Positions 2-40,122 of a stretch of DNA of 40,122 nucleotides are shown in pieces. The stretch comes from Rubrivivax sp. (lineage in GTDB: Bacteria > Pseudomonadota > Gammaproteobacteria > Burkholderiales > Burkholderiaceae_C), in contig JAEUPE010000117.1 in assembly GCA_016790435.1 (NCBI GenBank), forward strand, positions 1-40,122. Reading direction: 5' to 3'. Numbering within the stretch: the first letter of the stretch is position 1; every line of letters begins with the position of its first letter. The position numbers were made by a program, and so were the translations under genes. Under the pieces are notes generated by a model. The model had not been told where the DNA came from. It ran no database searches and saw only the letters and a program-made list of their open reading frames with translations.

Positions 2-643
2 GAGGAGCGCCTGGCCGGCAAGGGCGTGAGCCACTGCGCCAGTTGCGACGGGCCGATGCTGCGCGGCCGCGCCGTGGCCGTGGTGGGCGGGGGCGACGCC
101 GCCTGCCAGGAGGCGCTGACGCTGGCCGCCTTTGCCGAGCGTGTGCACCTGCTCGTTCGCGGCGACACGCTGAAGGCCCGGCCGGCCTGGCGCGAGCGCG
201 TGGCGCAGCAGCCGAAGATCGCCGCGCGCCACGGGGCCGTGGTGGAGGAGATCGTCGGCGACACCACCGTCGGTGGCGTGCGCCTGCGTGGCGGCGAGAC
301 GCTGCCCGTCGAGGCCGTGTTCGTCTATGCCGGCTTGGTGCCGGCGACGGCGCTGCTGCGCTCGGCCGGTGGCACGGCCGGCGCATCCGACCTCGTCGCG
401 TTGGACGCCGCGGGTCACGTGCGCGTGGATGCACGGCTGCGCACCTCCGAACGCGGCGCCTTCGCCGCCGGGAGCGTGCGCGCCGGCCACGATGGCCAGG
501 CCGCTGGCGCCATCGCCGATGGCGTGGCTGCGGCCGAAGCCGCAAACGCGTTTGTCCAGGCCGCCATGGCGGCCGATCCCGCCGACGGTGCCGTATGGCC
601 CGTCGCTCCTGAATCTCCCACCGAAGAAAGGACTCCTACATGA
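2..643 (+). CDS. Thioredoxin-reductase-like FAD/NAD(P) oxidoreductase, 3' part
   Basis: Partial gene whose start lies left of the window; 213 residues are visible, about two thirds of a usual thioredoxin reductase (310-320 residues). The visible part opens with a redox-active CxxC in the context SHCASCDG (visible residues 10-17), which is the dithiol that reduces the partner protein from FADH2. A second Rossmann nucleotide-binding stretch follows (VVGGGDAACQEAL), then the C-terminal FAD-contact segment GAFAAGSVRAG and the usual alanine-rich last helix. The classic HRR motif for NADPH phosphate is not obvious, so the electron donor is uncertain. The stop overlaps the next start as ATGA, with GAAAGGA upstream of that start. 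This tight coupling suggests the flavoprotein reduces the selenoprotein encoded next. Family assignment is from motifs; the partnership is inferred from context. Confidence 0.9.
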   Translation, partial: EERLAGKGVSHCASCDGPMLRGRAVAVVGGGDAACQEALTLAAFAERVHLLVRGDTLKARPAWRERVAQQPKIAARHGAVVEEIVGDTTVGGVRLRGGETLPVEAVFVYAGLVPATALLRSAGGTAGASDLVALDAAGHVRVDARLRTSERGAFAAGSVRAGHDGQAAGAIADGVAAAEAANAFVQAAMAADPADGAVWPVAPESPTEERTPT

Positions 644-2274
644 GTGCCTTGCTCACCGTGCACGACCCGCGCGGTTACCCACCCAAGGTGACGGCCAAGC
701 GGCTCGCGCCGCGGCTCGAGGCCCTGGACGGCAAGCTGATCCACCTGGTCGACTGCCTCTTCGACAACTCCGAACTGTTCATGCAGCAACTGCAAGGCTG
801 GTTCGCAGAACACATGCCGAGCGTGCGCACGGAGATCGTCAAGCCGCGCGAGAGCTGGGTCGACGACCCGGCGATGCGCGCCAAGGTCGTCAAGGAGGCG
901 GACGCCGCGGTCTTCGCCGTCGGTCTCTGAAGCACTTGCTGCCCGACGGTCGCCGGGCTCGCAATGGCGGTAGAGGCTGACGGGGTTCCGACAGTCGCCA
1001 TCCACACGCACGTGTTCGCGCGCCTCGCGCGCAACGCCGCGCGCGTCAACGGCACGCCCACGCTGCGCCAGGCCTTCGTGCCGCAGCCGGTGGTGGGGCA
1101 GTCGCCGGCGCAGCTGCGCGCGTACATCGAGGGCATCGACCCGGTCAACCAGCGCCCGTTCGTGCAGGAGGTGATCGAGGGGCTGACGCGGCCGCTCTCG
1201 GAGGAAGACCTCGCCGGCATCTCGTTCGAGCGCAACACGCCGCGCCTGCTGGAACCGGGCACCGAGGACGACTTGCGCCGGCGCTTCGAGGAGGAACGCT
1301 GGACAGACTACCTGCCGATCGTTCTGCCCACCGAAGAGCGCGTGGCGGCCATGCTGGCGGGCACGAGCCGCAAGCCCGACGAGGTCGTGGGCCGCATGCG
1401 CCCCACCAACTACCGCGAATTCTGGGAGTACACGGTCGAGAAGGTGGCCGTGAACGCGGTGATGGCCGGCGCACGGCCTGAATACTTCCCGGTCATCCTG
1501 GCCATGGCGGCCAGCGGCATGACGGCGCGCCAGAGCAGCACCACGAGCTGGGCGGCGCCGGCCATCGTCAACGGGCCCGTGCGGCAGCAGATCGGCATGC
1601 ACTGCGGCATCGGCGCCATGGGGCCGTACAGCCACGCCAATGTCGCCATCGGCCGCGCGCATGCCTTGCTCAGCCAGAACCTGCAGGGCGGCTCGGTGGT
1701 CGGCGACACCTACATGGGCTCGATCGGCAACGCCTACAACTATGCGTGCACCTGGGCCGAGAACGAGGAGAAGAGCCCCTGGGAACCGCTGCACGTGCAG
1801 CACGGCTTCAAGCCCGAGGACAGCGTGGTCACGGTGTTCCTGGGCGGCTGGTACACGATCAGCGGCTACGGCCCGCGCGACACCTGGGAGCAGCGCTTCC
1901 GCCATGCGCTGGAGGCGTGCGAGCCCTACAGCCCGCCCATCGTGCTGCTCGACCCGAGCGTGGCGCGGGGCTTCGTCGACAAGGGCTTTGCGAAGAAGCA
2001 GCAGCTCATCGACTGGCTGGCCCGGAACGCGCAGGTGACGGCGCGCGAGTACTGGGACGACCCGTGGACGCAGACGCTGATCAAGCCGCACGCCGTGGCC
2101 GGCGTCGAGCCCTGGGCATCGATGTGGAAGGCGGACCCCGATGCGATGGTGCGCAAGTACCGAGCGCAGGACATCAGCGTCGTGGTGCTAGGGGGCGAGA
2201 CGCAGTCGGCGTGGAAGATGGTCGGCGGCAACTTCGCGCGCGCGAAGATGGTGAAGGTGGATGATTGGCGCTGA
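640..2274 (+). CDS. UGSC-type selenoprotein with long C-terminal domain (UGA-recoded)
   Basis: I read this as one 544-residue protein with selenocysteine at residue 97. Frame 640-927 ends in VFAVGL, then TGA, then continues without interruption as STCCPTVAG through to the TGA at 2272-2274. The result is a U-S-T-C redox motif (U97, C100, with C101 next), preceded by EADAAVFAVGL and followed by VEADGVPTVAI, the context I know from UGSC-family (seleno)proteins. A SECIS-like hairpin sits at 936-964. The internal ATG at 964 has no ribosome site, whereas ATG 640 has GAAAGGA at 625-631 and is coupled to the reductase gene. Residues about 1-190 form the thiol-redox domain. Residues about 200-544 form a second domain I cannot name, with NYREFWEYTVEKVAVNAVMA from residue 258 and cysteines at 322 and 370. 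An automatic caller would split this into 96- and 436-residue fragments. The substrate is unknown. Confidence 0.85.
928..930 (+). other. In-frame UGA read as selenocysteine (Sec97)
   Basis: TGA codon inside the open frame 640-2274, giving the UxxC motif U97-S-T-C100. Recoding is supported by the uninterrupted frame on both sides, the family context, a hairpin with a GGUC loop 18 nt downstream, and a selB gene at the other end of the window. Selenocysteine here would be the attacking residue of a redox pair like CxxC. Confidence 0.82.
936..964 (+). promoter_or_regulatory. Bacterial SECIS-like hairpin
   Basis: mRNA hairpin inside the coding sequence just after the UGA. Lower stem 936-939 pairs with 961-964 (UUGC/GCAA). 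After an internal loop (U940 opposite U959 C960), the upper stem 941-945 pairs with 954-958 (GCCCG/CGGGC). The apical loop 946-953 is ACGGUCGC, and C947-G952 may pair to leave GGUC. E. coli fdhF SECIS, as I recall it, also has an unpaired U in the stem and a GGUC-containing loop, with GGUC starting about 19 nt after the UGA; here it starts at +18. SelB winged-helix domain 4 binds this loop type. Folding was done by eye, not computed. Confidence 0.75.
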
Positions 2275-2304: not shown

Positions 2305-3591
2305 TCATTCAGCGCACACGATGTTGCGCCCGTCCGACTTGGCCCGGTACAAAGCGGCGTCGGCCCGCTCCAGCATCTCAGCCACACCTTCCCCCGCGTG
2401 GCTCACGGTCACCCCGATCGAGCAAGTGACCTTGAGGTCCGCCGCGAGGTCCGTCCAGGGATGCTCATCCACCACACGACGCAGACGCTCGGCCGCCAGC
2501 ACCGCGGCGGGAGCGTCGAGGGTGTTCGGCAGCAGGAGAAGAAACTCCTCGCCGCCATAGCGCGCGAAGTGATCGGTGCCGCGCAGATTGCCGGTGACGA
2601 TCTTGGCGAACACCCGCAGGACGTCGTCGCCCGCTGCATGGCCGAGGCGGTCATTGACTCGTTTGAAATGATCGATGTCGAGGAGCGCCAGCCCAAACGC
2701 CTGGCCGCCGCGCGCGAACCGCGCACCCTCTTCGGTCAGCAAGGCCAGGATGCTCCGCCGGTTCTTCAGCCCGGTCAGCTCGTCCCGCTCCGAGAGCTCG
2801 CGCACCTGGGTCAGGGCCAGGGCAAGCCGGGCATTGCTGGCCGACAGTGCTTTGCGCATTTCGACGCCGATCAGATTGATGGCAGCGATCTTGCCCAGGA
2901 CCACGGCGAACCATAGACCACTGAGCAGGCGCGACCACCGGTCCTCCAGGGGCATGCCGAACCGGTCGCCGTGGGCCATCAGAAGGGCCAATGAGCAGGT
3001 GGCGACGAGACCAGAAACCGCCAGCACGTGCTTGAGCGGCAGCTGCAGAGCGGCCGTGGCGACGGCGACCATCATGGTCAACAGCAGCAGCATGCCGATT
3101 TGCGGCACCACGGCCGCGGTGACGAGCATCAGGCTGCATGCGGTCACCAACTGGACCGTCGTGAAGCGCGCGCCACCCATTCGCCGATGAAGGCCCATGC
3201 GCACGACGACGGCAAACAGCCCGGTCAGTCCGCAACCTGCAGCGCCATAGACCACCGGGGCGAGCGCAGGAAGCAGGCCATGCTCGGCAAAGGCCACCAT
3301 GAAGAGGACGTCTACCAGGTAGAACGACAGCACCATGATCTGCGTACGCATGGCCCGGCGGAGGTGTCCGGCCGGCGTGTGCGATGCAGGGGGGCGGTCC
3401 GACGGGCGAAGAGGCGTCGGGGAGGTCGCGGTCTGCACGGTCAGGCGAGGCTCGATCGGCACGTCGACGACCGATCGGTGCGCCGCGGCGACGACGGAGC
3501 CTGCGGCGCCGCAACAAGGGTGTCGGGAGCTGGCAGGACGCAGGGCATGGAGACAGGGACCAGGGGTGGCAGTGCGGGATGACGGATCCAT
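2305..3591 (-). CDS. Membrane-anchored GGDEF diguanylate cyclase
   Basis: Makes cyclic di-GMP from two GTP. The 428-residue protein has a poorly conserved, basic and proline-rich N-terminal stretch (1-80), about six hydrophobic segments between residues 85 and 245, and a GGDEF domain over about 265-428. The domain starts at ERDELTGLKNRR and carries the active-site loop GGEEF (346-350). Five residues before it lies RGTD (337-340), an intact RxxD product-inhibition site, so both catalysis and feedback inhibition are predicted. The start at 3591 has GAAAGG just upstream. ATG 3351 (residue 81), directly before the first membrane segment, is an alternative that would remove the odd N-terminus. It converges with the selenoprotein gene (30 nt gap) and diverges from the BenE-type gene. 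No sensory domain beyond the membrane region is recognised. Confidence 0.9.
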   Translation of the reverse strand: MDPSSRTATPGPCLHALRPASSRHPCCGAAGSVVAAAHRSVVDVPIEPRLTVQTATSPTPLRPSDRPPASHTPAGHLRRAMRTQIMVLSFYLVDVLFMVAFAEHGLLPALAPVVYGAAGCGLTGLFAVVVRMGLHRRMGGARFTTVQLVTACSLMLVTAAVVPQIGMLLLLTMMVAVATAALQLPLKHVLAVSGLVATCSLALLMAHGDRFGMPLEDRWSRLLSGLWFAVVLGKIAAINLIGVEMRKALSASNARLALALTQVRELSERDELTGLKNRRSILALLTEEGARFARGGQAFGLALLDIDHFKRVNDRLGHAAGDDVLRVFAKIVTGNLRGTDHFARYGGEEFLLLLPNTLDAPAAVLAAERLRRVVDEHPWTDLAADLKVTCSIGVTVSHAGEGVAEMLERADAALYRAKSDGRNIVCAE

Positions 3592-3755
3592 CGCCTTTCG
3601 GCCGTGGCGACGACGACTTGAGGTGACACGTGCCGGGCCCGCACCGGTAGCGGCGTTGTGTCACGCCGTCGTTGCGATGGTGTCGGCGGCGGGGCAGGCC
3701 GGTGGTGGGGCGTCAGTTCGGCACAATCGTTCCGGTCGTTCACGCTGGAGTCCCC

Positions 3756-5006
3756 ATGCCCCTGGAGCCCGCCCACCGCCCGCTCCCCGGCCCGCGCCAG
3801 ATCCTCGCCGACTCCGGCAGCCTGTACCTCGCCAATGCGATCATCGGATTCATCTTCGCCGCCTCGGGCCCGGTGGCCATCATCCTGGCGGTCGGCTCGA
3901 ACGGGGGCCTGAGCGAGTCGGCCCTGTCCTCGTGGATCTTCGGCGCGTTCTTCCTCAACGGGCTCATCACGCTGCTGTTTTGCACGCTGTACCGACAGCC
4001 ACTGGTCTTCTTCTGGACGATTCCCGGCACGGTGCTCGTCGGCCCTGCGCTGGGCCACCTCGCCTGGCCCGAGGTGATCGGCGCCTTCCTGGCCACCGGG
4101 GCGCTGATGTTCGTGCTCGGCTTGTCAGGCTGGGTGCGGCGGGCCATGTCGGCGGTGCCGATGCCCATCGTGATGGGCATGGTGGCGGGCGTGTTCCTGC
4201 GCTTCGGCCTGGGCCTGGTGCACGCGGTGCGCGACGACTTCTGGATCGCAGCGCCGATGGTGGTGGCGTTCCTCCTGCTCAGCGCCACGGCTGCCTGGGC
4301 GAGGCCTTTTCGCTTCATTCCGCCGCTCATCGGCGCGCTGATCGTCGGCGCGGTGGCCGTTGCCCTGCTGGGCAAGTTCCAGTCGAGCGGTGGTGGTCTG
4401 GTCGGGGCGCACCTGCTTGCCCAGCCCGAGTTCGTGCTGCCCGTGTTCTCGTGGCGCGCGATGGTGGAGCTCGTCGTGCCGCTCGCCATCACCGTGCTCG
4501 TCGTGCAGAACGGCCAGGGCTTCGCCGTGCTCGACGCCGCCGGGCACAAGGCACCGATCAATGTCATCACGGTGGCCTGCGGCGCAGGCTCGATGCTCGC
4601 GGCGTTGGTGGGTACGGTCTCCACCTGCCTCACCGGCCCCGTGAACGCCATCATCTCGGCGTCCGGCGAGCGGCACCGGCACTACACCGCCGGGCTCGCG
4701 GTGGGCGTGTTCGCGCTGGCGTTCGGGCTGCTCGCGCCCGTCTTCACGCGGCTGATGCTGGCCACGCCGCCGGCCTTCATCGCGGCGCTCGCAGGGCTGG
4801 CCATGCTGCGCGTGTTGCAGACGGCGTTCAACGTGTCGTTCCGAGAGCGCTTCACGCTCGGCGCGCTCGTCACCTTCCTGGTCACTGTGGCCGATGTGCC
4901 CATCTTCCACATCGGCGCGCCGTTCTGGGGCCTGGTGATCGGCTACGCGGTGTCGCGGCTGCTGGAGCGCAAGGACTTCGGAACCGCGGCGTCGAAAGGC
5001 CCCTGA
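3756..5006 (+). CDS. benE: BenE-family benzoate/proton symporter-like transporter
   Basis: Integral inner-membrane transporter of the BenE family (benzoate:H+ symport), 416 residues with about 11-12 hydrophobic helices. Family-typical stretches are visible: LANAIIGFIFAASGPVAIIL near the start, WTIPGTVLVGPAL, and VQNGQGFAVLDAAGH in the middle, followed by a glycine/alanine-rich re-entrant-like stretch with TCLTGPVNAI. I chose ATG 3756 because GGAG lies at 3747-3750 and the protein then begins with a normal cytoplasmic leader; the frame is open upstream to 3672 but without a good ribosome site. The acyl-CoA ligase gene starts 64 nt downstream on the same strand, so the two may take up and activate one aromatic or carboxylic acid. 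Substrate identity is inferred from the family only. Confidence 0.85.
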   Translation: MPLEPAHRPLPGPRQILADSGSLYLANAIIGFIFAASGPVAIILAVGSNGGLSESALSSWIFGAFFLNGLITLLFCTLYRQPLVFFWTIPGTVLVGPALGHLAWPEVIGAFLATGALMFVLGLSGWVRRAMSAVPMPIVMGMVAGVFLRFGLGLVHAVRDDFWIAAPMVVAFLLLSATAAWARPFRFIPPLIGALIVGAVAVALLGKFQSSGGGLVGAHLLAQPEFVLPVFSWRAMVELVVPLAITVLVVQNGQGFAVLDAAGHKAPINVITVACGAGSMLAALVGTVSTCLTGPVNAIISASGERHRHYTAGLAVGVFALAFGLLAPVFTRLMLATPPAFIAALAGLAMLRVLQTAFNVSFRERFTLGALVTFLVTVADVPIFHIGAPFWGLVIGYAVSRLLERKDFGTAASKGP

Positions 5007-5070
5007 CACCCGGGATTCAACGGATCGCGGGGGGCTGTCCAGCCCGCTGAATCGACCCTATCGTGTCGGC

Positions 5071-6663
5071 ATGACCGTGCACGCCGACATCGACACCGCC
5101 CGCGCGCGGATGACCACCGGGCGCGACATCCCCTGGCTGCTGCGGCAGTGGGCCGAGCGCACGCCCGACAAGACCTTCCTGGTATGGGAACCGTTCACCG
5201 GTGCGGGCCGCACCTGGAGCTACGGTGAACTGGCGCGCGACGTCGAGGCCTTCGCCGGCGCGCTGCATTCGCTGGGCGTGCGCCTCGGCGAGCGCGTGAT
5301 GCTGCACCTGGACAACGGCCCGGAGTTCGTGATCGCGTGGTTCGCCTGCGCGCGGCTCGGCGCCGTGGCGGTGTCGACCAACACGCGCTCGGTGGCGCGC
5401 GACATGGCCTACTTCGCCGAGCACGCGGGCGTGGTGGCCGCGGTCACGAGCCCCGGCTTCGCGGCGCTGGTGGCAGACAACGCGCCCGGCTTGCGGGCGT
5501 TGATCGTCACCGACGACGATGCCGGAGAGCCCCCCGCGGCACCGGTGACATTGCCGCACCTGCGCTTCAGCGCGCTGCTGGGGGCGGGCCACGCTGCACC
5601 GGCGCGCGCCGCCGACCCGATGGCGAACCTGGGCATCCAGTACACCTCGGGCACCACGTCGCGGCCCAAGGCTGTTCTGTGGACGCATGCCAACGGCCTG
5701 TGGGGCGCGCAGATGAACGCGCTGCACATGCGGCTGCGCGACGACGACGTGACGCTGGCCTTCCTGCCGCTCTTCCACACCAACGCGCAGGCGTACTCGA
5801 TGCTGGGCTCGATGTGGGTGGGCGCGACGATGGTCGTGCAGCCGCGCTTCTCCGCCTCGCGCTTCTGGGAGGTGTCGCTGCGCCACCGCTGCACGTGGTG
5901 CTCGATGATCCCGTTCTGCGTGAAGGCGATCGTGGAGGTGCCCAAGCCCGCCAAGCCGCATCACTACCGCTTCTGGGGCCCGGCCGTGTCGTTGCCGGAA
6001 GTGCAGGAGGCGTTCGGCATCGCCACTTTCGGTTGGTGGGGCATGACCGAGACGATCACGCACGGCATCACCGGCGACCCCTGCGTGCAGGACCCGCGCA
6101 TGGGCATCGGCCGCCCGTCGCCCGGCTACGACATCGCCATCCGCCGGCCCGACGGCACGCCGGCACAACCCGGCGAGCGTGGCGCGCTCTTCATCCGCGG
6201 CGTGCGCGGTGTCAGCCTCTTCAAGGAGTACTTCAACAATGCCGAGGCCAATGCGAAGGCCTTCGACGCCGACGGCTGGTTCGCCACCGGCGACATGATC
6301 CGCATCGACGAGGCCGGCAACCTCTTCTTCAGCGACCGCGACAAGGACATGCTGAAGGTGGGCGGCGAGAACGTCGCGGCCAGCGAGGTGGAGGCGGTGA
6401 TCCTGGAGACCGGCTGGGTGCGCGAATGCGCCGTGGTCGCGCAGAAGCACCACATGCTCGACGAGGTGCCCGCCGCCTTCGTACGCGCGGCCGAGGGCGC
6501 GCCGATCGACCTGCCCGAGCGCCTGCTCGAGGTCTGCCGCGCCAAGCTCGCGGATTTCAAGGTGCCGCGGCACATCGAGCTCGTCGACGACTTCCCGCGT
6601 TCCACGCTCGAGAAGATCGCTAAGAACGTGCTGCGCGAGCGGCTGCCGGCCATCACGAAGTAG
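5071..6663 (+). CDS. AMP-forming acyl-CoA ligase (CaiC/FadD-like)
   Basis: Activates a carboxylic acid to its CoA thioester through an acyl-AMP intermediate. The protein has 530 residues, normal for the ANL superfamily. The P-loop-like motif YTSGTTSRPKAVLW starts at residue 191, the A5 motif GWWGMTET spans 321-328, the hinge GDMIRID lies near residue 407, followed by DRDKDMLKVGGENVA, and the adenylation lysine is K515 in LEKIAK near the C-terminus. All catalytic elements are present. The sequence looks closer to crotonobetaine/carnitine-CoA or generic medium-chain ligases than to benzoate-CoA ligases, so its pairing with the BenE-type transporter does not fix the substrate. No strong ribosome site is seen before ATG 5071; ATG 5110 is an alternative. 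It converges with the thioesterase gene. Confidence 0.9.
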   Translation: MTVHADIDTARARMTTGRDIPWLLRQWAERTPDKTFLVWEPFTGAGRTWSYGELARDVEAFAGALHSLGVRLGERVMLHLDNGPEFVIAWFACARLGAVAVSTNTRSVARDMAYFAEHAGVVAAVTSPGFAALVADNAPGLRALIVTDDDAGEPPAAPVTLPHLRFSALLGAGHAAPARAADPMANLGIQYTSGTTSRPKAVLWTHANGLWGAQMNALHMRLRDDDVTLAFLPLFHTNAQAYSMLGSMWVGATMVVQPRFSASRFWEVSLRHRCTWCSMIPFCVKAIVEVPKPAKPHHYRFWGPAVSLPEVQEAFGIATFGWWGMTETITHGITGDPCVQDPRMGIGRPSPGYDIAIRRPDGTPAQPGERGALFIRGVRGVSLFKEYFNNAEANAKAFDADGWFATGDMIRIDEAGNLFFSDRDKDMLKVGGENVAASEVEAVILETGWVRECAVVAQKHHMLDEVPAAFVRAAEGAPIDLPERLLEVCRAKLADFKVPRHIELVDDFPRSTLEKIAKNVLRERLPAITK

Positions 6664-6757
6664 CCGGCTGGGGCACCGAGCCGCGTCTGGTCCACGCCGC
6701 CACTCGCCCGGTGCAAGAGGCGGCGGCCACGCGCCAGGTTGCGCCGCCCCGTGCCGC

Positions 6758-7573
6758 TCAGGCGGCCTCGCGCCGCCGCACGGCGAGGCTCTGCACGGCG
6801 CGGCCGATGAGGCCGCGCTCGTCGTAGAGCGCCGATTCGGCCAGGCCGCAGCCGTTGCCGCCGAGGGAGGTGCGCGCCTCCAGGCAGATCCACTCGCCGC
6901 GCGGCCGGCGCAGCAGGTGGACCGTGAGGTCGCAGTTGACGAAGACGTGGCTCTTGAAGTCGAGCGCGGCGCTGATGCCGTTGCCGGAGTCGGCCGCCAC
7001 GGCCACGCGCTGGTAAGGACTGGGCTCCTCGCCAGTCACCAGCGGGTACTGCATGCGGAACCAGGCCGTGCACGGGCCGTGGAAGAAGGTGCCCGCGACG
7101 AGACGGTTCTCGACGAAGTCGCCGTAGCCGATCACCTTGCCGACGAAGGGCATGTAAACGCGCGGGCACCCCGCTGGCAGCGGTGGCGGTCGGGGCAACG
7201 GGTGGCCCGGTGTGCCTTCGGGCACGGGCGCATCGTCGTCTTCGCGCTGCATCAGGGCTGTGAAGCGGGCCAGCTCCTTGCCGCCGGCGCCGGCATCCAG
7301 CAGCCGCGCCGAGTAGTGGCCGGCATTGCGGCCCACGTAGTCGGGCGTCACGTCGACCCGCAACTCGCCCAGGGGCACCGGACGCAGCAGGTTCACCGTG
7401 AGGCGCCCGAGGTGCGTGAGGCCCTGGGCGGCCGCGGCCTGCTCGATGGCGCGGCACACCAGCGCGGTGGGCGGGCCCGCATGCTGGTGCTGCGGGTTCC
7501 AAGGGCCGCGGGTGTATTCGGTGGCCGCAAAGTGGTGGGCGGCGCGGGGCTCGTAGGCGCAGGTGGGAGGCAT
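6758..7573 (-). CDS. Acyl-CoA thioesterase family protein (double hotdog)
   Basis: Predicted to hydrolyse acyl-CoA thioesters in the cytoplasm. The 271-residue protein fits the tandem-hotdog TesB-like thioesterase family (4HBT_3 type). The first hotdog contains NPQHQHAGPPTALVCRAIE and a conserved strand LTVNLLRPVPLGEL. The second contains the family motif AADSGNGIS and ends in NCDLTVHLLRRPRGEWICLEA. It follows the lipoprotein gene by 21 nt on the same strand, but no ribosome site is evident in that gap. It faces the acyl-CoA ligase across a 94-nt convergent gap that holds a weak GGCGGC/GCCGCC inverted repeat without a T tract. Substrate chain length cannot be judged from the sequence. Confidence 0.85.
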   Translation of the reverse strand: MPPTCAYEPRAAHHFAATEYTRGPWNPQHQHAGPPTALVCRAIEQAAAAQGLTHLGRLTVNLLRPVPLGELRVDVTPDYVGRNAGHYSARLLDAGAGGKELARFTALMQREDDDAPVPEGTPGHPLPRPPPLPAGCPRVYMPFVGKVIGYGDFVENRLVAGTFFHGPCTAWFRMQYPLVTGEEPSPYQRVAVAADSGNGISAALDFKSHVFVNCDLTVHLLRRPRGEWICLEARTSLGGNGCGLAESALYDERGLIGRAVQSLAVRRREAA

Positions 7574-7594
7574 GGAGCTTGGTGCCGAGTGGGT

Positions 7595-8137
7595 TCAGCA
7601 GGAGATCACGTAGCTGCCCTGCACGATGCGGTAGCGGCCGGCCTGTTCGGGCGGCAGCGTGATGCGTTCGAAGTTGTTCGAGAGGCCGCGCTCGCGCCAG
7701 TCGGGGATGGCTCGATGGGCCAGCCGGCTGCCGGGCAGCCCGGGCTCGACACCGCCGACGACGGCATTCAGCCCAAGCCGCTCGTTGCCGCTGTCTTCCA
7801 GCACGCGGAGCCGCACGGCCTGGCCGCGCTGCACCGCCAAGCCCGGCGGCAGGATGGCGAAGCTGCTCCAGGTGGCGTCCACCGAGGGTGAGCACGACAC
7901 CAGGGCGACGCGCCCGGCCGCCACGGCCGCGTCGTCCACGCCAGCGGCGCGCAGCCGCGCGGCATCGAGGTTCAGGCGCGCGCTGTAGCCCTGGTGGCCG
8001 CTCAGGTCGCGGGCAGCGAGCACCCTGTCCACCCCCACCCAGGCGTCGCCGCCCAGCCGCGGGCCCGAGGCGCAGCCAGCGGCCAGTGCACACAAGCCGG
8101 TGATCACGGGAGGGAGGAGAACGGGTTTCAGAGCCAT
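7595..8137 (-). CDS. Hypothetical lipoprotein
   Basis: Unrecognised 180-residue protein with a clear lipoprotein signal: M-A-L-K-P followed by a hydrophobic stretch and the lipobox ALAAGC, so the mature protein starts at the cysteine of GCASG and should be membrane-anchored. The rest is a mixed alpha/beta sequence with two further cysteines, one in LVSCSPS and one as the last residue (SYVISC), which could form a periplasmic disulfide. I chose ATG 8137 because it gives a standard signal peptide. A GTG at 8161 in the same frame would add eight residues, and neither has a good ribosome site. It lies upstream of the thioesterase gene and may be co-transcribed. No function is claimed. Confidence 0.7.
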   Translation of the reverse strand: MALKPVLLPPVITGLCALAAGCASGPRLGGDAWVGVDRVLAARDLSGHQGYSARLNLDAARLRAAGVDDAAVAAGRVALVSCSPSVDATWSSFAILPPGLAVQRGQAVRLRVLEDSGNERLGLNAVVGGVEPGLPGSRLAHRAIPDWRERGLSNNFERITLPPEQAGRYRIVQGSYVISC

Positions 8138-8209
8138 CGCATCATCGTAGCGGCTTGACACACCGGGGCGGCGGCCGCCGTGCGGAGCGCGCGTGCGGCC
8201 GGCGCGCCG

Positions 8210-8365
8210 CTAGAAGTCGAGGATGACGATCCTGCGGCCCAAGGGCCAGCGGTGCGCCTCGGAGCCGAGCTCGTCGCAGGCCTGGCGGATCTCCATCACG
8301 GCGGCGGTCAGCCCCAGCCGCTGCGGTTCGGCCGCGGGCGCCGCTTGCTTGGGGTCGGTGGCCAT
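8210..8365 (-). CDS. Possible 51-residue small protein
   Basis: Short frame in the 330-nt gap between the lipoprotein and galM, beginning MATDPKQAAPAAEP and ending GRRIVILDF with a TAG stop. The composition is protein-like: a disordered A/P-rich start, an amphipathic helix (LTAAVMEIRQACDELG), then a basic-hydrophobic end. No family is recognised and no clear ribosome site precedes ATG 8365, so it may be spurious. It lies between a hairpin after galM and the lipoprotein start. Confidence 0.4.
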   Translation of the reverse strand: MATDPKQAAPAAEPQRLGLTAAVMEIRQACDELGSEAHRWPLGRRIVILDF

Positions 8366-8428
8366 CAGATCGTTGGCGGGGCGCGAGCATCGTGAATCGA
8401 GCAGGCATTGTGAACACGGAGCCCGGGC

Positions 8429-8453
8429 GAGGGCAAGGCGGCGGCCTTGTCTC
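8429..8453 (-). terminator. GC-rich hairpin downstream of galM
   Basis: CAAGGC (8434-8439) pairs with GCCTTG (8444-8449) around a 4-nt loop, extended past a small internal loop by GAG/CTC (8429-8431 with 8451-8453). It begins about 15 nt after the galM stop on the minus strand. There is no T run after it, so intrinsic termination is uncertain. Confidence 0.35.
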
Positions 8454-8467
8454 GGTGGCCCGCGTGA

Positions 8468-9538
8468 TCAACCCGCGGTGCGGAAGCGGTGCAGGGTGCT
8501 GCTGCGGAAGATCTCGCCCGGACGCAACACCGTGGAGGGGAAGTCCGGCCGGTTGGGCGCGTCCGGGAAGTGCTGCGTTTCCAGGCACACCGCGTCACCG
8601 CGCCGATACGCGCAACCGCCGCGGCCCCGGAGCCGGCCATCGAGGAAGTTGCCCGAGTAGAACTGCAGGCCCGGCTCGGTCGTCTCGATGTCCATGCAGC
8701 GGCCCGAACCCGGATCCGCCAGCGTTGCGGCCCAGGCCAGGCCTTGCGGTCTGCTGCGGTCGAGCACGAAGCAATGGTCGTAGCCGCCGGCGAGGATCAG
8801 TTGTGGGTGATGGCCGTGGATGCGCGCGCCGATGGGTTGCGCTTCGCGGAAGTCGAACAGCGTGCCCGCCACCGTGGCCATGCCGCGCGGGATCAGCGCT
8901 GAGTCGACCTCGAGGTAGCGGCTCGACGCGAGCGCCAGCCGGTGGTCCATGGCCGTGCCGCCACCAGCGAGGTTGAAGTAACCGTGGTGGGTGAGATTCA
9001 CCACCGTGGGGCGGTTCGTCACGGCCCGGTAGTCGATGCGCCACGTGTCATCGGCGCCCAAGGCGTAGCGCACTTCGACGTCGAGGCGGCCAGGGAAGTG
9101 GCTGTCACCATCGGCGCTGGTCAGGCGCAGAAGGATGCCGGCCACTGCGTTGGCCGCGGGCGGAAGGGGTTCGATGTCCCACCAACGGCGGCCGAAGCCC
9201 TCCGCGCCGCCGTGCAGCGCATGCGGCCCGTCGTTCGGCACGAGCTGGTGCGCCTGGCCATCAAGCTCGAAGCGCGCGAGCGCGATGCGGTTCGCGTAGC
9301 GCCCCACCAGCGTGCCGAAGTGCGGGTGCGGCGCGACGTAGCCGGCCAGGCCGTCGAAGCCGAGCACGATGTTGGCGCTGCGGCCCTCGCGGTCGGGGCA
9401 CTCGATGGCGGTGACGACGCCGCCCCAGTTGATCGCCCGCAGCCGCAGGCCGTGCCCGTTGTCGAGCGTGTACTCCGCGACCTCGCGGCCGTCGGCCAGG
9501 CGGCCGAAGGGTCGCACGGTGACGCCGGCCGCGGCCAC
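8468..9538 (-). CDS. galM: Aldose 1-epimerase (mutarotase)
   Basis: Interconverts alpha and beta anomers of an aldose, feeding a sugar dehydrogenase that accepts one anomer. The 356-residue length is normal. Visible family motifs are GRYANRI (79-85), NDGPHALHGG with the substrate-binding histidine H106, LTHHGYFNL with the catalytic acid candidate H184/H185, and TTEPGLQFYSGNFLDG with the catalytic base E288. The start is GTG 9538, three nt after the stop of the SDR gene, so it is the last gene of the SBP1-ATPase1-permease1-SDR-galM operon and is probably translationally coupled. The transporter and dehydrogenase neighbours indicate a pyranose or furanose sugar entering oxidative catabolism; which sugar is not determinable from the sequence. 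Confidence 0.93.
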   Translation of the reverse strand: MAAAGVTVRPFGRLADGREVAEYTLDNGHGLRLRAINWGGVVTAIECPDREGRSANIVLGFDGLAGYVAPHPHFGTLVGRYANRIALARFELDGQAHQLVPNDGPHALHGGAEGFGRRWWDIEPLPPAANAVAGILLRLTSADGDSHFPGRLDVEVRYALGADDTWRIDYRAVTNRPTVVNLTHHGYFNLAGGGTAMDHRLALASSRYLEVDSALIPRGMATVAGTLFDFREAQPIGARIHGHHPQLILAGGYDHCFVLDRSRPQGLAWAATLADPGSGRCMDIETTEPGLQFYSGNFLDGRLRGRGGCAYRRGDAVCLETQHFPDAPNRPDFPSTVLRPGEIFRSSTLHRFRTAG

Positions 9539-35992: not shown

Positions 35993-38869
35993 CTATGGCG
36001 GCGTGTTGGTCACGATCAGCGTTCCCACCTTGTAGCGCCGCCCGTTCGTCTCGTCGGTCACTCCGGCCCCGGTGATGAGCACATAGTCCGTCCACGGGTT
36101 GCCACCCGAGAGGCCGACGCGGATCTCATAGGTCCCGAGCGTGGTCGGCGCCGTGATCGCGCGCGTTTCGGCGAACGCTCCCGCAACCCATGTTGCCGAG
36201 GAGGTGAAGTGATCATCGACCGATGCGACGGTGCTTCCGTTGCGGTCCAGGTGCATGAACTGCAGCAGGTTCGCCGACATCGGCATCCGGTACCAGTTGA
36301 GGTTGACGTTGACCCGGCTCCCCGGCAACGCGTAGTAGGTGGCGGGCGCGGCCATGTCGACGCGCGTGGTGAGCGGCACGGCCGGCGGCACCGGGGCCGG
36401 CACGGTGCCGGTCTGCACGTAGCTGCGCACGGCATTCATCCAGTGGTTCATGATGAGCAAGCGCGCGGAGTCGTTGGGGTGCAGCCCGTCGCTCGCATAC
36501 ATCGAACCCGGCACGCCGGTAAGTGACGGCACGAAAAAGACTCGGTAGTAGATGCTGTTGCCGGCGCCGGCCGACTTCGCCTGCACCATCTGCTGGATCT
36601 TGCTGTACATCGTCGGCATCGGATCCGTCGCACGCTCGAAGTTCGAAACGAACACGGCGGTGCGCGGGTTGCGCGCATGAATCATGTCGACGATGGTCGC
36701 GATGCGGCTCACCACGGCGTCCTGCGCGGTCCCGTCGTTCGGGAAGTAGCCGTCGTTCACGCCAATGTTGAGCAGCGCGATGTCGGGAGTCACCTGGTCG
36801 ACCCAGCCGTTGATCTGGGAGATGACGTGGGTGGTGCTCCAGCCGCTGCGGCCGATCTGCGGCGAGGTCACCTGTTCGACGACATTGGGTTCGCCGGGAT
36901 TGACGTAGCCGAACACGGCCGAGCTCTTGCCGATGGCGCTCAAGGCCTGCGTGATGGTCTGATAGCCCGGCAGTGCCGCCAGGTTCTCGGTGTTCGAGTC
37001 GCCGATCGGCATGATCCGCCACGAGTTGCCGATCTGCGGCGTGGGCAGGCCGGCGGTGTTCGCGACGTTGATGCTGAAGGACTGCGTGGCGAAAAGCCCC
37101 CCCGGGTCGGCCACGCGCGCGGTCACGGCCTGGCTGCCGGTTTGCGTGGACGTGGGGGTCCATGCGATCTGGCCACTGGTGGCGTTGATCGTCATGCCGG
37201 TGGGCGCCTGCGTCAACGAGTAGCTCAGCGTGTCGCCATTGGCGTCGTTGGCCGTGACCCGGTAGGCGTAGGCCGCCCCCACCGTGGCACTGGCGAGCGG
37301 CGAGGAGGTGATCTGCGGCGCTGCGGCGGCGGCCGTGACGGTGACGGTGAACGACTGCGTGGCGGCCAGCCCTCCCGGGTCGGCCACTCGCGCGGTGACG
37401 GCGCGACTGCCGATCTGCGCGGCCGTCGGTGTCCATGAGATCTGGCCGCTCGTCGCGTTGATCGTCATGCCCGTGGGCGCGGTGGTCAGCGAGTAGGTCA
37501 GCGTGTCGCCGTTGGCATCGGTGGCCGCCACCCGGTAGGCATAGGCCGCGCCAACCGTCGCGCTCGTGAGCGGTGCGGAAGTGATCTGCGGCGCGGCAGC
37601 GGCGGCCACGACGGTGACGTTGAACGACTGCGTGGCAGCCAGACCACCCGGGTCGGCCACCCGCGCGGTGACGGCACGGCTGCCGATCTGCGCGGCCGTC
37701 GGTGTCCAGGCGATCTGGCCACTCGTCGCATTGATCGTCATTCCCGCGGGCGCGGTGGTGAGCGAGTAGGTCAGCGCGTCGCCGTTGGCATCGGTGGCCG
37801 TCACCCGGTAGGCATAGGCCGCACCAGACGTCGCGCTCGTCAGCGGCGTGGAGTTGATCTGTGGCGCCACGTTGGTCGCGACGACGGCGACATTGAACGA
37901 CTGCGTTGCTGCCAGCCCACCGGCGTCGGCCACGCGAACCGCAACCGCACGACTGCCGGCCTGCGCCGCCGTCGGCGTCCAGGCGATCTGGCCGCTCGTG
38001 GCGTTGATCGTCATGCCCGCGGGCGCCGTGGTGAGCGAGTAGCTCAGCGTGTCGCCATTGCCATCGCTGGCCGTCACGCGGTAGGCATAGGCTGCGCCCA
38101 CCGCGGCGCTGGTGAGCGGCGTGGAGGTGATCTGCGGCGCCACGTTGACCGCCGCGACGGTGACGTTGAACGATTGCGTGGCCGTGAGGCCCGTTGGGTC
38201 GGCCACGCGCACGGTGACCGCGCGGGGACCGGCCTGTGCGGACGTGGGTGTCCATGCGATCTGTCCGCTCGTGGCGTTGATCGTCATGCCGGTGGGCGCC
38301 GTGGTGAGCGAGTAGCTCAACGTGCCGCCGTTGGCATCGGTGGCGGTCACCCGGTAGGCATAGGCCACGCCCACCGTCGCGCTCGTGAGGGGCGTGGAGG
38401 TGATCTGCGGAGCCACGTTGCCGGTGGAGACGGTGAGCGTGCCGACCTTGTAGCGGTGGTCGTTGCCTGGGTCGGTGACCCCGGCGCCCAGGGTCAAGGC
38501 GTGATCGACCCACGGGTTTCCGCCGGACAGCCCGACACGGATGTCATAGGTGCCTGCGGCGAGCGAGGAAGGGACCGTGATCGTGCGCGTCTGGGTGAAC
38601 GGCCCCGTGGTCCATGTACTCGAAGTGGTCCAGTGGTCGTCGACCGACCATTCGCTTCCGGAGCGCACGAGGTGCACGAACTGGAGGTAATCCGCCGCAG
38701 CACGGACGCGGTACCAGTTGAGCGTGATCGCCACCGTGCCGCCCGGGCTGGCGGTGTACGCTGCCGGCGTGGCCAGGTCGACGCGCGTCGTCGTTGGCGC
38801 CTGCGCCCAGGTCGGCGAAACGGACGCCGCCAGCATCACGAGGAGAAGGCGCAACATGTGCTTGACCAT
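35993..38869 (-). CDS. Secreted modular SGNH/GDSL hydrolase with five cadherin/Ig-like repeats
   Basis: 958-residue exported protein. Signal peptide 1-22 ends at TWA|QAP. Domain A (about 26-150) is a beta-rich module beginning TTTRVDLATPAAY and ending RYKVGTLTVS. Five tandem 91-residue repeats follow (151-605), each with PLTSATVG, AYAYRVTATDANGD, GMTINATSGQIAWTP and a C-terminal TQSFNVTV strand, resembling He_PIG/cadherin-like folds. The SGNH hydrolase (about 617-820) has block I MPIGDSNTEN with nucleophile S625, block III NIGVND, and block V SDGLHPND supplying Asp and His, so it should be active on an ester. A second copy of domain A closes the protein (834-958). ATG 38869 has AAAGGTGG upstream. 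Likely target is an acylated polysaccharide or other surface ester; this is inferred. No anchor or sorting signal is evident. Confidence 0.9.
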   Translation of the reverse strand: MVKHMLRLLLVMLAASVSPTWAQAPTTTRVDLATPAAYTASPGGTVAITLNWYRVRAAADYLQFVHLVRSGSEWSVDDHWTTSSTWTTGPFTQTRTITVPSSLAAGTYDIRVGLSGGNPWVDHALTLGAGVTDPGNDHRYKVGTLTVSTGNVAPQITSTPLTSATVGVAYAYRVTATDANGGTLSYSLTTAPTGMTINATSGQIAWTPTSAQAGPRAVTVRVADPTGLTATQSFNVTVAAVNVAPQITSTPLTSAAVGAAYAYRVTASDGNGDTLSYSLTTAPAGMTINATSGQIAWTPTAAQAGSRAVAVRVADAGGLAATQSFNVAVVATNVAPQINSTPLTSATSGAAYAYRVTATDANGDALTYSLTTAPAGMTINATSGQIAWTPTAAQIGSRAVTARVADPGGLAATQSFNVTVVAAAAAPQITSAPLTSATVGAAYAYRVAATDANGDTLTYSLTTAPTGMTINATSGQISWTPTAAQIGSRAVTARVADPGGLAATQSFTVTVTAAAAAPQITSSPLASATVGAAYAYRVTANDANGDTLSYSLTQAPTGMTINATSGQIAWTPTSTQTGSQAVTARVADPGGLFATQSFSINVANTAGLPTPQIGNSWRIMPIGDSNTENLAALPGYQTITQALSAIGKSSAVFGYVNPGEPNVVEQVTSPQIGRSGWSTTHVISQINGWVDQVTPDIALLNIGVNDGYFPNDGTAQDAVVSRIATIVDMIHARNPRTAVFVSNFERATDPMPTMYSKIQQMVQAKSAGAGNSIYYRVFFVPSLTGVPGSMYASDGLHPNDSARLLIMNHWMNAVRSYVQTGTVPAPVPPAVPLTTRVDMAAPATYYALPGSRVNVNLNWYRMPMSANLLQFMHLDRNGSTVASVDDHFTSSATWVAGAFAETRAITAPTTLGTYEIRVGLSGGNPWTDYVLITGAGVTDETNGRRYKVGTLIVTNTPP
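37055..38419 (-). repeat. Five tandem 273-bp coding repeats
   Basis: Repeat units, minus strand: 38419-38147, 38146-37874, 37873-37601, 37600-37328, 37327-37055. Each encodes 91 residues with no spacer; identity is high by eye, especially in units 3-4. Such arrays expand and contract by recombination. Confidence 0.9.
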
Positions 38870-39072
38870 GGACCACCTTTCGTCAGCCACAGAGCTTCTT
38901 CGGCTCATCCTTGCCGGGCTTCTCGCCGCGGCGCTCGCCCCGACCGGGGCGCGCCGCTCCTGCGTCGATTCTTGATCGCCGCTACTTGCAGCGTCCATGC
39001 CCGCACCGTGGGGTGCAGGTCGCGGTGGAAGAACTGCGTCACACCGGCTGGGCGACCGTGCTTGAGGGATGG
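38870..39072. other. 203-nt gap between selB and the SGNH gene
   Basis: I looked here for the selenocysteine tRNA (selC), which is sometimes near selB, and see no tRNA fold or TCA anticodon arm. GAGGG (39064-39068) can pair with CCCTC (39076-39080) across the selB stop, possibly part of its terminator. The SGNH promoter should lie here but is not recognisable. Confidence 0.4.
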
Positions 39073-40122
39073 CTACCCTCGCAGGTACTCGGGGGTGTCG
39101 GCCATCGACCGCCGCTCGTTCACGAAGCGGGTGATGCGCACGCGGTCGAAGTACTCCAGCACCTGAATCGACAGGTTGCGCCCGATGCCCGAGCGGTCGC
39201 GGAAGGGGATGACCTCGAAGCGGCCGTCGGGCGCGGCCGCAGCGGTTTCGCGCGCCACCTGCACCAGGGCCTGCAGGGTGGCGGGCAGGAAGAAGCGGTT
39301 CTTCGCGATCTGCACCAGGTGGCCGAGCGTGGCGGCGCGCTGCAGGAAGGCCAGGGTCTGGGGCAGCGGCAGGTCCAGCAGCGGCGCGATTTCGCCGGGC
39401 GGCGGCGGGCGCAGGCCGTCCGCCTGCAGCAGCGCGGTCACGCGCTGCAGCAGTGCGGCATCGGCTTCCGTCAGCCGGGCCACGTGGCCCGGGCAGCGCC
39501 AGACGAAACCATCGCGCTCGATGCGGCCCTCGCGCTGAAGCGCGTCCAGCGCGGCGCGGTGCAGCGGCCGGTCGGCGAGGGCCGCCAGCGCCTCGTGCAG
39601 GGCGGCGTCGGTGAGGCCGCGGCTGGCCGTCTCGTGGGCATGCGAGTCGGCGAGCACGCGCGGGATCGCGGCAAGCAGGGCCTGCCACGCCGGCGCGGCC
39701 AGCAGCCGCAGGCCCTGCGCATGCGGCAGGGCCACCGAGGCGGTGGCTGCCGCCAGGGCGCTGCCGGCATCGGCGGGCAGGTTCCAGTTGGCGGCGAAGG
39801 CGGGCCACTTCACGCCTTCCGGGCGCAGGGCCAGCAGCGCTGCGAGGGCGGCGGCAGGTGCCGGCGCGGCCAACGCTTCGAGCTCGGCCAGGCGCCGCGG
39901 TGTGGCGCGGCCGCGGGCCGGCGCGAAAGCATCGAGCACGGTGCCGCCGCCGAGCAGCCGCTGCGCCGCCGGGTCGCGCAACACGAAGCGGTCGCCGCGC
40001 AGCGCGCTCATCGGGCGGTCGAGCAGCAGTTGCGCGTGCCCGTTGCCGTCGAGCAGAACCAGGCGCGCCGCGCGCACGGCGTTGCCCAGGTGCAGATGCA
40101 GTTGCAGGTGCGATTGCGGGCG
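39073..40122 (-). CDS. selB: Selenocysteine-specific elongation factor SelB, C-terminal part
   Basis: The gene runs off the right end; 349 residues are visible. The fragment starts in the third beta-barrel domain (HLHLGNAVRAARLVLLDG, then RFVLRDPAAQRLLGGGTVLD, the characteristic SelB RD...GGG segment). It continues into the winged-helix array that binds SECIS RNA. The last winged helix is clear: FRDRSGIGRN near the end followed by QVLEYFDRVRITRF and NERR, matching the conserved SelB terminus. The N-terminal GTPase domain lies outside the window. SelB carries Sec-tRNA to the ribosome at UGA codons followed by a SECIS hairpin. Its presence shows the organism can decode such codons and supports the selenoprotein at 640. 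selA is expected upstream, beyond the window; that is inference. Confidence 0.93.
   Translation of the reverse strand, partial: RPQSHLQLHLHLGNAVRAARLVLLDGNGHAQLLLDRPMSALRGDRFVLRDPAAQRLLGGGTVLDAFAPARGRATPRRLAELEALAAPAPAAALAALLALRPEGVKWPAFAANWNLPADAGSALAAATASVALPHAQGLRLLAAPAWQALLAAIPRVLADSHAHETASRGLTDAALHEALAALADRPLHRAALDALQREGRIERDGFVWRCPGHVARLTEADAALLQRVTALLQADGLRPPPPGEIAPLLDLPLPQTLAFLQRAATLGHLVQIAKNRFFLPATLQALVQVARETAAAAPDGRFEVIPFRDRSGIGRNLSIQVLEYFDRVRITRFVNERRSMADTPEYLRG

Follow-up and report, generated by a model that had tools for sequence, protein, structure and literature searches.

Within the window analysed here, the entire 40122-base contig C49 of a Rubrivivax sp. genome (302 contigs, 80.8% complete), the gene at 640-2274 of the forward strand is split by an in-frame TGA. 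It very likely encodes one 544-residue selenoprotein, in which the UGA at 928-930 is read as selenocysteine (Sec) and which would function as a GrdB-like redox enzyme of the UxxC type, with a TrxB-like (thioredoxin-reductase-like) partner. The original prediction, made from the letters of the DNA, that the split gene is a selenoprotein gene is borne out by a Pfam UGSC domain that runs across the TGA, by TGA or a cysteine (Cys) codon at the site in homologues, and by a full Sec machinery in the same genome; the selenoprotein reading is thus strongly supported. The UGSC family and its fusion to a second domain were known before, while the link to GrdB and PrdB, the TrxB-like partner and the cassettes described below are new here.

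Gene structure and family

As anticipated, the frame is open from ATG 640 to the terminal TGA at 2272-2274, the sole in-frame TGA before that being the one at 928-930, which corresponds to residue 97. The start codon and the stop codon of the gene before it (open reading frame (ORF) 26-643) overlap as ATGA, and the start codon is preceded by AAGGA at 628-632, a likely ribosome-binding site 7 nucleotides (nt) before ATG 640. Codon-position G+C is similar before (0.70/0.40/0.91) and after (0.66/0.48/0.94) the TGA. Furthermore, the nonsynonymous rate (dN) lies well below the synonymous rate (dS) on both sides of the codon against each of five homologues tried, as exemplified by L034 (dN 0.158 and dS 0.929 before the TGA, dN 0.086 and dS 0.604 after it), and dS in the 33 nt following the TGA, at 0 to 0.44, is below that of the rest of the gene in all five comparisons.

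The Pfam family UGSC (PF24696) matches residues 7-164 (658-1131) with 82.9 bits, above its gathering cut-off of 25, and thereby spans the TGA. A UxxC motif had been proposed at this position, and the pair of Sec97 and Cys100 (TGC at 937-939) is indeed present; the surrounding sequence is however VGL-U-STC, giving a USTC rather than a UGSC motif. The C-terminal domain (1237-2271), for which no Pfam or NCBIfam family was found in the window copy, also occurs in some relatives as a separate gene whose frame lacks the UGSC part, sometimes near a separate UGSC gene. Both the UGSC family and a UGSC/Unknown_1 fusion appear in the available text of the GOS selenoproteome survey, which refers to its Fig. 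S1A (PMC2398784); compared by description only, that fusion resembles the window protein in joining UGSC to a conserved domain of unknown function. The protein agrees with the UGSC-containing selenoprotein family in its Pfam match spanning the TGA, in a UxxC motif that carries Sec or Cys and in the co-occurrence with SelB, and departs from it in its USTC motif, in a missed NCBIfam equivalog cut-off and in the fused C-terminal domain. A table in the available part of a 2016 survey gives 26 and 33 for the UGSC-containing protein, which we take as organisms and proteins (PMC5029168), and Geodermatophilaceae are described, in the available part of another publication, to hold UGSC-motif selenoproteins together with a tRNA-Sec of anticodon CUA and the matching codon (PMC5330540).

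Selenocysteine and cysteine among homologues

Homologues were recovered by a contig scan, from which the best 80 of 577 relatives were taken, so that distant relatives are under-sampled; 79 of the 80 cover the site. At these loci the codon is TGA in 59 and Cys (TGC or TGT) in 17, with Leu, Met and Ser once each, and the partner Cys at position 100 is kept in 77 of the 79. The alignment consequently places Cys at the TGA, as had been foreseen for Cys homologues (L023 being an example). Neither are homologues that end near residue 96 or start near 964 the rule, since 70 of 77 loci (L045 and L112 were left out of the 79 beforehand) have a match that begins no later than residue 10 and extends at least to residue 460.

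A match is held by nine of 61 genomes, comprising the own genome and 60 relatives. Within the genus, TGA occupies the same codon in G012 (95% identity), G004 (84%) and G017 (84%), and G004 has in addition a second copy, 53% identical, with Cys at the site, hence Sec and Cys copies in one genome. In the own genome, contig C299 ends in a second trxB-UGSC pair, which has the TGA and identical surrounding bases and may be a paralogue or stem from another strain in the bin. Two further genomes carry several UGSC domains with one TGA each: six in G048 and 19 in G041, a genome of the same order (loci L019, L025, L125, L133, L137, L139, L141, L143 and L145-L152). In G041 the TGA lies inside the motif in 15 of 16 loci examined, the remaining one having been missed by the search pattern.

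Selenocysteine machinery

The genome is equipped to decode UGA as Sec. Contig C19 carries formate dehydrogenase gamma, FdhE, SelA (577.4 bits, cut-off 267.9), SelB (442.4 bits, cut-off 242.25) and tRNA-Sec (75.5 bits, cut-off 47), and SelD is found on C272 (423.6 bits, cut-off 125). Across homologues, SelB exceeds its cut-off in 49 of the 51 genomes with a Sec form vs 2 of the 16 with a Cys form only (Fisher p 1.4e-10). In this hand tally L066 (Cys, sharing its record with the Sec locus L038) was set aside, L091 was left out, and L069, L082, L097 and L112 were counted as neither Sec nor Cys. All six relatives with the TGA form (G000, G004, G012, G017, G041 and G048) have SelB over the cut-off, and of three relatives without the TGA, G026 and G035 do not.

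A divergent SelB was detected in addition in the own genome, G012 and G017 (L153, 15099-15956; L154, 5002-6834; L155, 7904-9850), sharing 40-45% identity with the first. It lies about 5.5 kb from the UGSC gene in G012, and within a few kb of UGSC-type genes in both G012 and G017. It might serve UGSC-type genes alone.

A candidate hairpin after the codon

The 36 nt after the codon were folded and compared with synonymous recodings, with four control windows in the same genes. The mean z is -1.20 for 60 Sec genes (38 under -1) vs +0.29 for 17 Cys genes (2 under -1), and -0.11 for the control windows of the Sec genes. The p values (2.3e-5 for Sec vs Cys, Mann-Whitney; 2.3e-7 for Sec vs control, Wilcoxon) are optimistic, because related genes are not independent. 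The loop position is occupied by GGUC in 32 of 61 Sec sequences vs 2 of 17 Cys sequences, and when a 7-bp helix is fixed, 68% of cells are paired for Sec and 35% for Cys. In the window, the corresponding core, resembling a bacterial selenocysteine insertion sequence (bSECIS), would be at 941-958 with GGUC at 948-951, as suggested by the group. If the C-G pair beyond an A-C mismatch is closed, GGUC forms the loop at 17 nt from the UGA, within the 16-37 nt given for the bSECIS model in the available part of the published description (PMC13188914). The expected insertion element shows up as a folding signal across the Sec group, and this signal is not significant in the window alone.

Proposed relation to GrdB and PrdB

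An hhalign comparison of UGSC with GrdB/PrdB yielded a probability of 90 and an E value of 1.7e-6, with Sec aligned on Sec (88.7 and 2.5e-6 for a wider set); two controls gave 0.2 and 2.6. What is shared with GrdB, GrdF and PrdB, the selenoproteins of glycine, sarcosine and D-proline reductase, are 86 columns around the Sec, including the UxxC Cys on Cys and a P-x-P segment, whereas of GrdB only the last part is matched, the window protein has another C-terminal domain, and the scores are far under the GrdB cut-offs. Of 55 members, 10 hit a GrdB hidden Markov model when E values up to 1 are admitted (best 4.8e-6), and the cut-offs of TIGR01917, TIGR01918 and TIGR04483 are not reached, the best relative, L102, scoring 25.7 bits vs 602.2. 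Judged by sequence, the window protein would therefore be at most a distant relative of GrdB/PrdB, not a member. An AlphaFold2 model of the 544 residues (55 sequences) has a mean predicted local distance difference test score of 94.4 and a predicted template modelling score of 0.92, and in a structural comparison of residues 27-190 the best rows are Rossmann-like and receiver-like chains. Genomes with UGSC fusions can also carry a TGA-containing GrdB (L117-L119), as well as a group of shorter GrdB-like proteins with the motif U-P-G-C (L120-L122), and it is possible that these GrdB-like proteins are intermediates.

A role as thiol-disulphide oxidoreductase or antioxidant enzyme, still as a selenoprotein yet not as a GrdB-like reductive enzyme, is the alternative that survives best. 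It would fit the UxxC motif and the TrxB-like neighbour. We nevertheless consider it rather unlikely, as the confident model, over residues 27-190, is best aligned with Rossmann-like and receiver-like chains and the GrdB profile match places Sec on Sec.

Several observations weigh against the reading as a GrdB-like selenoprotein. At the level of the family, the NCBIfam UGSC equivalog (NF041046) is matched with 56.9 bits, under its cut-off of 125, and the window protein is therefore, on sequence grounds, to be regarded as a divergent member of the UGSC family, not as the equivalog. Leu, Met and Ser replace Sec or Cys in L082, L097 and L112; the latter two also lack the partner Cys, and all three are perhaps non-redox relatives. 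The Sec-bearing G107 and G068 have no SelB over the cut-off, the Cys-only G094 and G100 do, and G038 combines a UGSC domain without TGA with a SelB over the cut-off. Turning to the hairpin, a helix slid by 3 nt pairs in 66% in Sec sequences, near the 68% of the fixed helix; the window hairpin alone is not significant (z -0.58, synonymous z -1.2) and has the A-C mismatch beside the loop; in its minimum-energy form an 8-nt loop begins 15 nt behind the UGA, 1 nt closer than the published range allows; and no Rfam match was found near the TGA site. Finally, as to GrdB, the window protein itself matches GrdF with an E value of only 0.16, most member matches to GrdB are weak, and the unrelated SDR and RFC are matched by 6 and 5 of the 55 members, respectively, at E up to 1. 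In a single listing of 10 proteins only L102 and L105 reach E values of 0.1 or better against GrdB families, and the GrdB Pfam family has no match among the 55 members at E up to 1.

Alternative explanations of the TGA

That the gene is a pseudogene, the TGA representing a nonsense mutation in a Cys-type gene, is conceivable in that Cys homologues exist and TGC to TGA is a single base change. It is however highly improbable, considering that the TGA recurs at the same codon in the three same-genus genomes, in the second copy of the own genome and in the majority of loci, that dN stays far under dS before and after the codon, and that the TGA form co-occurs with SelB. Even less credible are two proteins, a 96-residue one and one from ATG 964. 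A mechanical ORF finder does list both frames, as had been expected of standard gene calling, but the 20 bases upstream of ATG 964 contain no AAGGA-like ribosome site, as originally stated, the split would fall inside a single Pfam domain and a single confidently modelled fold, and no stop interrupts L021, L022 and L023, three Cys homologues, at that point. A sequencing or assembly error, for which the fragmented assembly could speak, has a negligible probability, the same codon being found in other assemblies including that of the strain Ramlibacter aurantiacus AW1 (L037).

Genomic neighbourhood

The selenoprotein gene is preceded by the 3' part of a gene for a thioredoxin-reductase-like flavoprotein (2-643, forward strand; TIGR01292, 143.2 bits, cut-off 343.45), which is cut by the contig end, the window being a whole contig of a fragmented genome. 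It includes a CASC motif (SHCASCDG), which we take to be the redox centre. A full-length trxB-like copy is available on C299 (P0002); it shares with thioredoxin reductase a full-length match to TIGR01292 and a CASC motif at the position of the redox centre, differing in its score of 213.9 bits, under the same cut-off. Of the 79 loci, 21 (11 Sec, 10 Cys) have a TrxB-like gene on the same strand at a distance of at most 400 nt, and 27 have one anywhere in the flank examined; 18 of 100 close same-strand neighbours scanned match Pyr_redox_2. A further match to the window protein is in the flank of 16 of the 79 loci.

SelA or SelB is encoded in the flank of six of the 79 loci (L037, L041, L046, L047, L054 and L107), all six with a TrxB-like gene, and both SelA and SelB are present in L037, L041, L047 and L054. 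L037 holds SelA, tRNA-Sec, TrxB-like, UGSC and SelB on one strand at 2331-8702, and represents a self-contained selenoprotein cassette; tRNA-Sec is also present in L041.

Other close neighbours include a malonyl-CoA decarboxylase domain (3 of 100) and an AMP-binding enzyme (3 of 100), hinting at an acyl-CoA pathway around some UGSC copies. Elsewhere in the window, a BenE benzoate transporter adjoins an AMP-binding enzyme at 3672-6660 on the forward strand, perhaps for uptake and activation of an aromatic acid, and a 1271-codon frame at 35996-39808 on the reverse strand has Ig-like repeats and a GDSL lipase domain.

Proposed mechanism and significance

Aggregated, these data allow a mechanism to be proposed. 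SelA, SelB, SelD and tRNA-Sec of the genome itself would decode the UGA at 928-930 as Sec, guided by the hairpin directly after it, and Sec97 and Cys100 would form the UxxC redox pair in the Rossmann-like UGSC domain. For GrdB/PrdB, the available parts of the literature describe attack of the selenolate on a substrate carbon and release as selenenylsulfide (PMC10298544, PMC13188914), and thiol reductants that serve the GrdB/GrdF/PrdB enzymes (PMC10298544). Because of the homology to GrdB/PrdB, we propose that the Sec97 selenolate would most likely attack a small substrate, with a Sec97-Cys100 selenenylsulfide as the form of release. Judging from the neighbourhood, the adjoining TrxB-like flavoprotein with its CASC would re-reduce the selenenylsulfide, and the fused C-terminal domain would probably bind the substrate or shape it.

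Going further, UGSC fusions may constitute a broad, unrecognised GrdB/PrdB-type branch, which cleaves small organic substrates reductively beyond the Stickland metabolism of clostridia, directly reduced by TrxB-like proteins, partly spread as cassettes with their own SelA, SelB and tRNA-Sec, and with about 19 copies for different substrates in some genomes of the same order. This wider proposal is tentative, and we hold it to have somewhat less than an even chance.

Such an enzyme is easily missed, because a mechanical gene caller splits its gene in two fragments. The available portions of the 2008 survey and the 2026 review do not state a function for the UGSC selenoprotein family, and the link between UGSC and GrdB/PrdB supplies a testable chemical hypothesis for the family, with the genome neighbourhood pointing to the TrxB-like protein as the likely reductase partner.
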